DNA from: a virus
Virus record (IMG/VR): IMGVR_UViG_3300047094_000633
Location: 1-33,827 of that record
Length of the DNA stretch: 33,827 nucleotides
Strand: one strand, 5' to 3'
Made by a program: the position numbers and the translations under genes
Notes under the pieces: generated by a model
The model's input: only the letters and a program-made list of their open reading frames with translations
Told to the model about the DNA's origin: nothing
Database searches by the model: none
Shown here: in pieces, positions 21,661-25,223 of the stretch
Layout of the letters: each line of letters starts with the position of its first letter
Numbering within the stretch: the first letter of the stretch is position 1

Positions 21661-22285
21661 GCTGCACCCAGTAATCTATGACCTAGTGCCTAGCGTCGCT
21701 AACACTATCCATCGTAGGTATAAAGCTTACGTAGAAAAGGATGATGTAAAGCAGGAACTGATTGCTTGGTCTATGACTAGGGCAGAAGATCACATCATTG
21801 ATCTAATGGAACCTGTTGAGGAAAGACGTAAGCACAACGAGCAACGCATTGCCTGGCAGATGAGACGTGTAGCAGAGCGATACGCACGTAAAGAGAAAGC
21901 TGCTAAGTCTGGCTATCAGACTAATGATGAAGCCTACTACGAGTCAGCTACGCTTGGTCAGTTGCTACCCTTTGTTATTGCATCAGTCATAGATGGCACA
22001 GTATTAGAGCAGGCACAAGAGATGATTAGAGATGGGCAACCTAAAGGTTCATCATCTCCAGCAGAAGGTGGCAACCTACTTGCTAACCTAATAGACATCA
22101 AGAATGGCTTTCTTAAACTAGACCAAGAGGACCAGGCTATCTTGCGTATGCGCCATCACGAGAGCTTTACCCTGCAACAGATAGCACAGGTATTAGAGTG
22201 TGCTATCTCTACTGCAGATCGCAGGTGTGCTCAATCATTGCGTAGACTGCAAGATAATTTAGGCGGGGTTAGCCCCTGGCAATGA
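21653..22285 (+). CDS. Sigma-factor-like DNA-binding protein
   Basis: About 210 residues. I take GTG 21653, which overlaps the previous stop by 8 bases as in neighbouring genes; ATG 21638 is an in-frame alternative. The N-terminal half resembles the helical region 2 part of ECF-type sigma factors (Asp-Asp-Val-x-Gln-Glu-Leu). The C-terminal 50 residues (Leu-Asp-Gln-Glu-Asp-Gln-Ala-Ile-Leu-Arg-Met-Arg, then Thr-Leu-Gln-Gln-Ile-Ala and Ala-Asp-Arg-Arg-Cys-Ala) form a region-4-like helix-turn-helix. It may direct RNA polymerase to late promoters. The match is moderate. Confidence 0.65.
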   Translation: MTELHPVIYDLVPSVANTIHRRYKAYVEKDDVKQELIAWSMTRAEDHIIDLMEPVEERRKHNEQRIAWQMRRVAERYARKEKAAKSGYQTNDEAYYESATLGQLLPFVIASVIDGTVLEQAQEMIRDGQPKGSSSPAEGGNLLANLIDIKNGFLKLDQEDQAILRMRHHESFTLQQIAQVLECAISTADRRCAQSLRRLQDNLGGVSPWQ

Positions 22286-23022
22286 ACAGTATCTACAATG
22301 AAAACTGTTTGGACACTATGAAAGGTATGCAAGATAACTTCATAGACCTAACAGTTACATCTCCACCTTATGATGGCCTAAGAGTGTATAACGGATACTC
22401 ATTTAACTTTGATTCAGTTGCTTCTGAATTGTACAGAGTAACCAAGCAGGGTGGTGTAGTTGTATGGATAATAGGTGACTCTACAACTAAGGGTAGTGAG
22501 TCTGGTACATCTTTCCGCCAAGCTTTAGGATTCAAAGAAGCAGGGTTTAATCTGCACGATACTATGATTTGGCGTAAGAGTAACCCTATGCCAAAGTTTA
22601 GAAGCAAGCGTTACTTTGATGTCTTTGAGTATATGTTTGTACTGTCCAAAGGACAACCTAAAACCTTTAACCCTTTGATGCAATCTAATAAAAGAGCCGG
22701 TGAACTTTATGATTACACTGCCAAAGTAAAAACTAAGGGCAAGGTTAGAACCAAGAAAACATTTAACATCAATGATGAGCGATACAAAGATAACATCTGG
22801 GAGTGTGCTGTTGCTAAGAACGATACTGACCATCCAGCTGTGTTCCCTGAGTCTTTAATTGCAGACCACATAAAATCTTGGAGCAATGAAGGTGACATAG
22901 TTTACGATCCATTTATTGGGTCAGGCACAACAGCTTTGGCGGCACGTTCGCTTGGTCGTGCCTACATAGGTAGTGAAATAAGCCAGGAGTATTGTCAGAT
23001 TGCAGAGAGTAGATTATCTTGA
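22282..23022 (+). CDS. DNA methyltransferase, N4-cytosine/N6-adenine type, beta class
   Basis: 246 residues, overlapping the previous gene by 4 bases. Catalytic motif Thr-Ser-Pro-Pro-Tyr (residues 26-30) precedes the SAM-binding Asp209-Pro-Phe-Ile-Gly-Ser-Gly-Thr-Thr, giving the beta order. Ser-Pro-Pro-Tyr is typical of N4-cytosine enzymes, although some N6-adenine enzymes share it. Residues 95-180 are Lys/Phe-rich and include the likely target recognition region. In phages such orphan enzymes guard DNA against host restriction. It is followed within 4 bases by a possible nuclease-fold protein. Confidence 0.9.
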   Translation: MNSIYNENCLDTMKGMQDNFIDLTVTSPPYDGLRVYNGYSFNFDSVASELYRVTKQGGVVVWIIGDSTTKGSESGTSFRQALGFKEAGFNLHDTMIWRKSNPMPKFRSKRYFDVFEYMFVLSKGQPKTFNPLMQSNKRAGELYDYTAKVKTKGKVRTKKTFNINDERYKDNIWECAVAKNDTDHPAVFPESLIADHIKSWSNEGDIVYDPFIGSGTTALAARSLGRAYIGSEISQEYCQIAESRLS

Positions 23023-23843: not shown

Positions 23844-24605
23844 TTAATCAGCAGCTTGGATACCTTCCACTATCCACTCTACTACTGGTACTGCAATAGC
23901 GTTGCCCACTTGGCGATAGCGTGTCGAGTCAGATGATTGCTCCGTCCAGTTGTCAGGAAAACCCTGCAACCTCTCACACTCAACAGGCGTTAGCCTGCGT
24001 ATTGGTTCTTTCTTGTTGACTACATAAGGCACTCTTGCCCCACCAGTTCCCCAGTAAGTAGCCACAGTTGGTGAGTACTTATCGTAGAAGCGTGTGTCAC
24101 TTACCCTTGTAGCCTCAAACAACAGGGTGCGATCTGATACATCTTCCTCTTGCGTTTTGTGGGCAACCACATTTTCGAAAGCTTGACGCAGTTTCTCCGG
24201 TAATGATGGGCTTCTACGAAGTACTCCCTCTGCAGCTTTTGCTGTTAAATAATATTTCTGCTGGTTCGGTTGAGTCTTCACCACGCTTTCCAACAATGAA
24301 TACTCGGCGCCTTCGCTGGGGTATTCCGAAGTGTTGAGCATCAAGCACACGCCAGCTGAGAGAATACCCGAGGTCGGCCATAGTCCCGATGACGACTCCA
24401 AAATCTCTTCCTTTGTTACTGGATAGCAAACCAGGGACGTTTTCGATGATGAAGTATTCTGTTTGCGTTTCTTCCACAAGTCTTGCAATCTCCCAGAATA
24501 ACCCGCTTCTTTCCCCAACAAGGCCAGCCCTCTTGCCAGCAACGCTGAGGTCTTGGCAGGGAAATCCTCCCGTAATAATTCCTCTGCTTGGATTAAATCC
24601 TTCAT
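23844..24605 (-). CDS. Cytosine-C5 methyltransferase C-terminal frame (motifs IX-X) with overprinted N-terminus
   Basis: 253 residues from ATG 24605, preceded by AAGGA with an 8-base spacer. Residues 200-253 carry the Dcm C-terminus: Ile-Arg-Arg-Leu-Thr-Pro-x-Glu-Cys-Glu-Arg-Leu-Gln-Gly-Phe-Pro (motif IX) and Arg-Gln-Val-Gly-Asn-Ala (motif X, Asn235). Residues 1-130 overlap the N-terminal Dcm frame by 392 bases in the +1 frame. Within them Asp-Phe-Pro-Ala-Lys-Thr-Ser-Ala-Leu-Leu, Asn-Thr-Ser-Glu-Tyr-Pro and Tyr-Tyr-Leu-Thr-Ala-Lys-Ala look like a phage protein family I recall, so this frame is probably translated throughout. It either forms a complex with the alpha frame, as in M.AquI, or is joined by a +1 frameshift. 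Confidence 0.75.
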   Translation of the reverse strand: MKDLIQAEELLREDFPAKTSALLARGLALLGKEAGYSGRLQDLWKKRKQNTSSSKTSLVCYPVTKEEILESSSGLWPTSGILSAGVCLMLNTSEYPSEGAEYSLLESVVKTQPNQQKYYLTAKAAEGVLRRSPSLPEKLRQAFENVVAHKTQEEDVSDRTLLFEATRVSDTRFYDKYSPTVATYWGTGGARVPYVVNKKEPIRRLTPVECERLQGFPDNWTEQSSDSTRYRQVGNAIAVPVVEWIVEGIQAAD

Positions 24606-24789
24606 CTATTAGATCCTTTCCCGTTACTGTAGTTACATCTGTAAATTGTTTTGCGTCAGGAAAATGTTGTGCCAGTACATCTCTGCACTTGGCATCTATC
24701 TCCACATTGGCAACGACCTTTACGCCTTGGCGTTTCATAGCAAGATCAAAGCCTCCAATACCAGCAAAGAGGCTAACTCCCGTTAGCAT
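24214..24789 (-). CDS. Cytosine-C5 methyltransferase N-terminal frame (motifs I-VIII)
   Basis: 191 residues, start overlapping the transglycosylase stop (TGATG). Motif I Phe-Ala-Gly-Ile-Gly-Gly (8-13) binds SAM. Motif IV Gly-Phe-Pro-Cys78-Gln holds the catalytic Cys. Motif VI Glu116-Asn-Val and motif VIII Gln158-Arg-Arg-Arg-Arg follow. The frame stops soon after motif VIII. Motifs IX and X, needed to complete the fold, lie only in the overlapping frame at 23844-24605. Dcm enzymes methylate carbon 5 of cytosine in a specific DNA site, here probably against host restriction. Activity would require the second frame. Confidence 0.88.
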   Translation of the reverse strand: MLTGVSLFAGIGGFDLAMKRQGVKVVANVEIDAKCRDVLAQHFPDAKQFTDVTTVTGKDLIDEGFNPSRGIITGGFPCQDLSVAGKRAGLVGERSGLFWEIARLVEETQTEYFIIENVPGLLSSNKGRDFGVVIGTMADLGYSLSWRVLDAQHFGIPQRRRRVFIVGKRGEDSTEPAEILFNSKSCRGSTS

Positions 24790-25081
24790 CAGTACCAGCC
24801 TCTGCGATCTGAATGTCGGAGAGAGCTGCAGAAACTGCCTCCATAGCGGTGTTCAACGTATCGTATAGCGTGAAGGATTTGAAGTTCAGGTTGTCCACTA
24901 CGCTCTCTAAGGAGTTGAGCAATTCCGAAAGCTGAGCTAATTGGTTTGCCCGAAGAGTCTCTTGGGCGAGCAAGGTGGTCGAAGCGGGATTCACGGGTCC
25001 AAAGTGTGACCGCACACTCTCTCTGTTGTGCGTTGTATCCGAGTGCTCTGAGGAAACTAACTGCAAGTGCCTTGTTCTCAC
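24773..25081 (-). CDS. Candidate overlapping gene, third frame over the transglycosylase
   Basis: 102 residues from GTG 25081, which overlaps the stop of the 92-residue gene (GTGA) and follows GGAGGAG by 4 bases, an excellent initiation site. Residues 38-100 are Leu-rich and amphipathic, like a coiled coil (Leu-x2-Leu-x2-Leu-Leu-x2-Leu), with an acidic end. Against it, the transglycosylase frame on the same DNA is clearly conserved, so this frame may be chance. It ends 17 bases into the methyltransferase gene. Confidence 0.3.
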   Translation of the reverse strand: MRTRHLQLVSSEHSDTTHNRESVRSHFGPVNPASTTLLAQETLRANQLAQLSELLNSLESVVDNLNFKSFTLYDTLNTAMEAVSAALSDIQIAEAGTDANGS

Positions 25082-25223
25082 GCTTCTCCTCCATTGTTGC
25101 TTTCGTTCTCTCTGTCATAATCGGTACGTCCTGCGACATCTGGGACGGCGTTCGCCCTTGTACGTGTACTAATACTAAGCTTGCCGTCACCAACAAGACT
25201 CCAAATAGTGCCTTCTTGTTCAT
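24789..25223 (-). CDS. Lytic-transglycosylase-like cell-wall enzyme with N-terminal membrane segment
   Basis: 144 residues from ATG 25223, with GGAGGAG about 10 bases upstream. Residues 1-22 are Lys-Lys followed by a hydrophobic stretch, a signal or anchor. Residues 50-144 hold an SLT-like fold: Glu78-Ser-Arg-Phe with Glu78 as the likely catalytic acid, Ala-Phe-Gly-Ile-Ala-Gln at 99-104, Ile-Leu-His-Ala-Ile-Arg-Tyr...Arg-Tyr-Gly, and a Gly-Trp-Tyr end. This family cuts the glycan strand of peptidoglycan. Its first 49 codons overlap the gene upstream in another frame; Met44 is an alternative start without the membrane part. Distinct from the M15-like endolysin at 14595. Confidence 0.75.
   Translation of the reverse strand: MNKKALFGVLLVTASLVLVHVQGRTPSQMSQDVPIMTERTKATMEEKRENKALAVSFLRALGYNAQQRECAVTLWTRESRFDHLARPRDSSGKPISSAFGIAQLLRERSGQPELQILHAIRYVEHRYGGSFCSSLRHSDRRGWY

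Follow-up and report, generated by a model that had tools for sequence, protein, structure and literature searches.

The 33,827-nucleotide stretch of phage DNA analysed here (the window, a 33.8-kb IMG/VR record) was found to carry a cytosine-5 DNA methyltransferase whose conserved motifs are divided between two overlapping reading frames, and its sequence indicates that the locus probably encodes a nested two-subunit (alpha/beta) enzyme. Alpha, read in frame 0, would supply the cofactor-binding and catalytic motifs I–VIII. Beta would start at its own ATG within alpha and supply the segment following motif VIII, the remainder of the recognition region, and motifs IX–X. The two chains are expected to assemble into an active enzyme, by analogy with M.AquI and M.EcoHK31I. 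As alpha ends after motif VIII and motifs IX–X occur only in beta, beta is needed if the enzyme of the window is to have these motifs. The N-terminal ~100 residues of beta would be an overprint of the alpha DNA for motifs IV–VIII, common to many phage methyltransferases and under purifying selection.

Organization of the locus

The window belongs to a tailed phage, with terminase, major head and tail-fibre proteins present. The features of the methyltransferase locus are as follows.

24214..24789, minus strand: alpha ORF (frame 0), 191 amino acids, C5-methyltransferase motifs I–VIII (PF00145, E 1.1e-56), its stop 34 codons past motif VIII
23844..24605, minus strand: nested beta ORF (+1 frame), 253 amino acids (PF00145, E 7.9e-18, residues 100–250), with, in order, an overprinted N-terminal part, post-VIII segment, distal recognition region and motifs IX and X
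24214..24605, minus strand: alpha/beta overlap, 392 bases, constraint on both frames
24614..24619, minus strand: AAAGGA, resembling a ribosome-binding site, 8 bases upstream of the beta ATG
24605-24603, minus strand: beta start ATG
24553..24567, minus strand: motif IV (GFPCQ) in frame 0, read in +1 as DFPAKTS
24301..24321, minus strand: motif VIII (QRRRRVF) in frame 0, with the +1 reading through NTSEYPSEG
24213..24302, minus strand: beta segment EYSLLESVVKTQPNQQKYYLTAKAAEGVLRR, counterpart of LKDILEENVDEKYYLS, which lies after motif VIII in frame 0 of ordinary methyltransferases
23955..23999, minus strand: motif IX (RRLTPVECERLQGFP) in the beta frame
23892..23921, minus strand: motif X (RYRQVGNAIA) in the beta frame

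Both alpha and beta scored above the Pfam cut-off for PF00145, and the motifs of this family follow in order, with I, IV (PCQ), VI (ENV) and VIII in alpha and IX, which reads RRLTPVECERLQGFPD, and X in beta. The overprinted part of beta matched the phrog_16143 profile (E 9e-7, residues 12–124), and a match of beta to phrog_1008 was also obtained. A recognition-region stretch present in most relatives (KSRRAQ..DYETW..GGV.PTLN) is missing from the window beta. A preliminary description of this DNA had reported the division of motifs I–VIII and IX–X over two frames with a 392-base overlap, and an ATG and AAGGA site belonging to the second frame. The coordinates given there are right, with both ORFs on the minus strand, and the start codon and the AAAGGA site lie at the positions listed above. 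Its placement of DFPAKTS opposite GGFPCQDLS (motif IV), and of NTSEYP..YYLTAKA opposite and just after motif VIII, was likewise correct.

Alpha is adjoined by a second overlapping pair in different frames (24773-25081 and 24789-25223, both minus strand), consisting of a transglycosylase-like ORF (phrog_35836, E 5.5e-11) and a 102-amino-acid ORF without a family match. The window encodes another DNA methyltransferase (22282-23022, plus strand; PF01555, E 3.9e-49), an N6/N4-type enzyme located ~800 bases from the C5 enzyme on the opposite strand.

The layout of the window recurs in three contigs (L011–L013; 100, 98, and 96% identical). Compared with the 96% identical contig, the part of beta outside the overlap, carrying IX–X, had 22 synonymous and 6 nonsynonymous changes, a ratio which rules out a pseudogene or broken gene. 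Ten changes were counted in the 392-base overlap vs 28 in the 370 non-overlapping bases of beta. Within the lineage to which the window belongs, purifying selection acts on the IX–X frame.

Constraint on the overprinted frame

Near relatives were collected as 80 + 80 loci from viral contigs, fetched with beta and with alpha, respectively. In the usual relative, alpha covers motifs I–VIII and some of the recognition region, the nested +1 ORF has ~153–170 amino acids and its own stop 57–69 codons past motif VIII, and IX–X lie in a separate ORF with its own start. The window differs from these in that its nested ORF continues directly into the distal recognition region and motifs IX–X. Many phages combine a complete alpha with a nested ORF that has no IX–X, and methylation may not depend on the nested ORF there. 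Locus L387 seems to show the window's layout independently, as a nested +1 ORF of ~275 amino acids also ends in motif X (KALGNAVVPQ).

Some relatives have one intact methyltransferase frame, such as Rctr41k (L002, 399 amino acids), L045, L148, L150, and MM1. The preliminary description, which proposed that both frames are selected, had named such relatives, or random stops in the second frame of relatives, as findings that would speak against it. The former exist (Rctr41k, L045, and MM1 among them). However, the nested +1 ORF is still open in these three, so selection on both frames is not refuted by their existence, which suggests instead that the joining of the nested ORF to IX–X was a later step. 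The +1 frame was open over motifs IV–VIII in all distinct members fetched from viral contigs, and among the nine phage records pooled with the near-relative set, P1 (L009) was found to have a +1 frame that is not open.

These single-frame genes (Rctr41k, L045, and P1 Dmt) could also be taken to favor a highly improbable reading in which a single-frame gene was simply broken in two by a frameshift or deletion, and the +1 ORF is a shadow cast by codon use and protein conservation in frame 0. Common codons for GGFPCQDIS do give GDFHAKTS in the +1 frame. However, the +1 frame is also open in most of the single-frame relatives, and the purifying selection on the IX–X frame in the window lineage is likewise at odds with this reading. 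When frame 0 was resampled synonymously, an open +1 frame was expected in 0.51 and 0.16 clusters (80% identity) of two sets and observed in 23/24 and 24/25, which gives 47 of 49 vs 0.67 expected; the third frame was open in 0/49. The +1 frame was also open in all 50 distinct loci fetched by alpha (frame 0) alone, a set unselected for the +1 frame. Ordinary single-frame methyltransferases, used as a negative control, had an open +1 frame in 0/23 cases (averaging 6–7 stops), as against 7/7 for the nested type.

The distribution of changes by codon position agrees with these counts. The frame-0 third-position difference fell from 0.47 ahead of the overlap to ~0.15 inside it (3676 pairs of related sequences, which share ancestry and are not independent), and the drop coincides with the +1 start codon, which speaks against a shadow ORF. 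Within the overlap, position 1, which is the third position of the +1 frame, is about as free as the third position or freer. Between 24 and 44 codons past motif VIII the rates at positions 1, 2, and 3 were 0.485, 0.252, and 0.202, the pattern of the +1 frame alone. Fourfold-site diversity at residues invariant in frame 0 also fell in three groups (p 0.004, 8e-4, and 8e-6), from 0.53 to 0.33 in freshwater group A, from 0.66 to 0.41 in Firmicutes group B and from 0.70 to 0.47 in the GTPCQSF group D. Groups B and D, and part of group A, had been collected using +1-frame queries. Low synonymous change over the overlap, which the preliminary description had put forward as a test of its proposal, was found from the +1 start onward, and selection on both frames is borne out. 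Synonymous resampling and the position test together rule out a shadow ORF as the sole explanation. Suppressed synonymous change in frame 0 and an alternative frame stop-free beyond expectation, two marks of a selected overlapping gene, are both present, and the overprinted frame appears from the sequences of several phage groups to be a conserved gene.

Start codons are enriched at the +1 start, as are Shine-Dalgarno-like sites, which lie ahead of the first +1 start in 18/41 clusters vs a background of 0.079. This enrichment bears on whether beta is a separate chain. Programmed +1 frameshifting near motif VIII could instead fuse motifs I–VIII to the C-terminal part read in +1, so that a single polypeptide has the ordinary order, and the product would restore the canonical succession of VIII, LxDxLE..KYYLS, recognition region, IX and X (as in L239 and relatives). 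Such frameshifting is considered improbable in view of this enrichment, because groups A and B are already constrained from the +1 start codon on, a long way upstream of motif VIII, and because the +1 frame stops before IX in most phages, so that the fused product would be truncated. The GTPCQSF group, where the constraint is strongest in the C-terminal part, would fit it better. In that group (L414–L493) the +1 constraint is weak over motifs IV–VI and strong only in a region that begins ~30 codons ahead of motif VIII and extends ~45 codons past it. A +1 stop occurs in 6/31 clusters over the tested stretch, and the nested protein of this group may be shorter or optional.

Distribution and origin of the nested frame

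The nested protein of Rctr41k matched 340 of 50,697 phage records by tblastn, including phages with Streptococcus, Lactococcus, Enterococcus, Mycobacterium, Caulobacter, Akkermansia, Faecalibacterium and other hosts. A 48-amino-acid C-terminal piece matched at least 600 stretches of viral contigs; among the best 80 of these, 79 were in the +1 frame relative to a methyltransferase and 0/80 in the same frame. The family corresponds to phrog_16143 (MM1 orf14 match, E 1.2e-83). Members of phrog_1008, from Clostridia and phages, are nested as well, but longer, ending in the motif IX-like LNPxWxEWLMGFPxGW, and frame 0 at these loci has motifs I–VIII and X, without IX. A methyltransferase was identified in the other frame at 71/73 of the phrog_1008-type viral loci checked, the remaining two being partial matches. 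A free-standing phage family was rejected on these counts (71/73, and 79/80 for the best of at least 600), and no free-standing member was found via phrog_1008, phrog_16143 or the C-terminal segment among the loci checked. The patterns which the preliminary description attributed to separate phage proteins appear to belong to this nested ORF, phrog_16143 and phrog_1008 being nested ORFs wherever this could be checked.

In phage MM1, orf14 is nested +1 in orf13 and the two are deposited as the beta and alpha subunits of a C5 methyltransferase, so the nested ORF had already been noticed in at least one phage. A literature search on nested phage methyltransferases found no description.

The overprinted part of beta was modeled by AlphaFold2 with low confidence (mean pLDDT 60), only residues ~115–150 of the window beta, a helical hairpin, rising above pLDDT 90, and the MM1 nested protein was also of low confidence (53). 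No PDB match to either predicted structure was found, nor were solved relatives of the nested protein found by sequence. Together, the low confidence and the absence of a PDB match suggest that the overprinted part may be disordered or may fold only with alpha.

The preliminary description had suggested that a whole family arose by overprinting Dcm. This holds for phrog_16143 and phrog_1008 insofar as they appear to be overprinted on the IV–VIII part of a C5-methyltransferase, but not for the C-terminal piece. Ordinary methyltransferases (L239, L494, and others) have motif VIII and then, ~20–25 residues on, LKDILEENVDEKYYLS in one frame; in nested-type methyltransferases the same DNA reads QNRERVFIIGHLRGERGREVFPI in frame 0 and SLSDILEENVDEKYFLS in +1. 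The C-terminal piece of the nested protein (SLxDxLE..KYYLSxKA) corresponds to the stretch following motif VIII in frame 0 of ordinary methyltransferases, and so appears inherited rather than overprinted, with overprinting limited to the part opposite motifs IV–VIII. In the simplest account, a small deletion after motif VIII would have brought the former post-VIII segment into frame +1, and the +1 ORF would then have extended upstream over motifs IV–VIII and gained a start. In the window phage, a second deletion would have fused the nested ORF to the IX–X half.

The persistence of the nested protein where alpha is complete might point to a function of its own, such as sliding-clamp docking or interference with host defence, with IX–X joined here by accident. 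A clamp-binding-like motif, Q[LMQ]x[LM][FL], is enriched near the nested N-terminus, in 12/42 clusters vs 0.53 expected from synonymous resampling (the motif having been chosen after looking at this first set) and in 7/20 vs 0.40 and 8/38 vs 0.17 expected in two groups fetched later. However, a separate function of this kind seems unlikely. The nested protein sits inside a methyltransferase at the loci checked, the IX–X of the window depends on the nested ORF, and the window beta lacks a QLxLF motif. Furthermore, in the EcoHK31I-like branch the nested ORF carries motif IX and frame 0 lacks it, so beta and the motif missing from the enzyme occur together. Peptides such as QLTLF, QLDLF, and QLSLF were observed at the nested N-terminus in L002, L003, L176, L356, L369, L387, and others; they resemble the bacterial sliding-clamp-binding motif, and their distance from motif IV varies. 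It is conceivable, though doubtful, that the nested frame is an overprint-born subunit that docks the methyltransferase on the sliding clamp via QLxLF, so that methylation would follow the fork, and that this is widespread in phage C5-methyltransferases.

Known split methyltransferases and wider significance

The two-subunit arrangement favored here has described counterparts. M.AquI and M.EcoHK31I are two-chain enzymes (PMC3404938), the latter being naturally split (PMC3439449), and in M.AquI alpha comprises I–VIII and beta the distal recognition region and IX–X (PMC3404938). The window shows the same type of split, with alpha ending after VIII and IX–X carried by beta, and the parallel with M.AquI drawn in the preliminary description is fair to that extent; the closest described relative is, however, M.EcoHK31I, whose small subunit has IX. 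The M.AquI genes are not known to overlap by more than a little or to have an overprinted N-terminal region, whereas in the window 392 bases are shared and constrained in both frames.

The small chain of M.EcoHK31I, a two-polypeptide C5-methyltransferase (YGGCCR), carries motif IX, which in the window is likewise in beta and absent from alpha. Lee et al. are said to have reported in 1995 that the M.EcoHK31I beta is read from inside alpha. Nested ORFs of the phrog_1008 type match the M.EcoHK31I division, having IX in +1 and X in frame 0. In the M.EcoHK31I type, X and the recognition region are in alpha; the window has X in beta and an alpha that ends 34 codons after VIII, and it was therefore not classed as a member. 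In MM1 a beta-type ORF is nested +1 in alpha, as in the window, but the MM1 alpha is complete with IX–X and orf14 stops before them, whereas the nested ORF of the window runs through IX–X. The division seen here, with IX and X both in beta and alpha stopping after VIII, is novel, although of a kind already known from M.EcoHK31I and M.AquI.

To our knowledge, there are few documented cases in double-stranded DNA phages of long overlaps on the same strand with constraint on both frames. The nested frame spans phages of Streptococcus, Lactococcus, and Enterococcus, mycobacteriophages, and Caulobacter and freshwater phages, and in most cases it is either left without annotation or entered as a second methyltransferase. 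The nested frame offers a tractable case of protein birth by overprinting and of the passage from a single-chain to a two-chain enzyme, and recoding codons when phage methyltransferases are cloned could silently lose a subunit.
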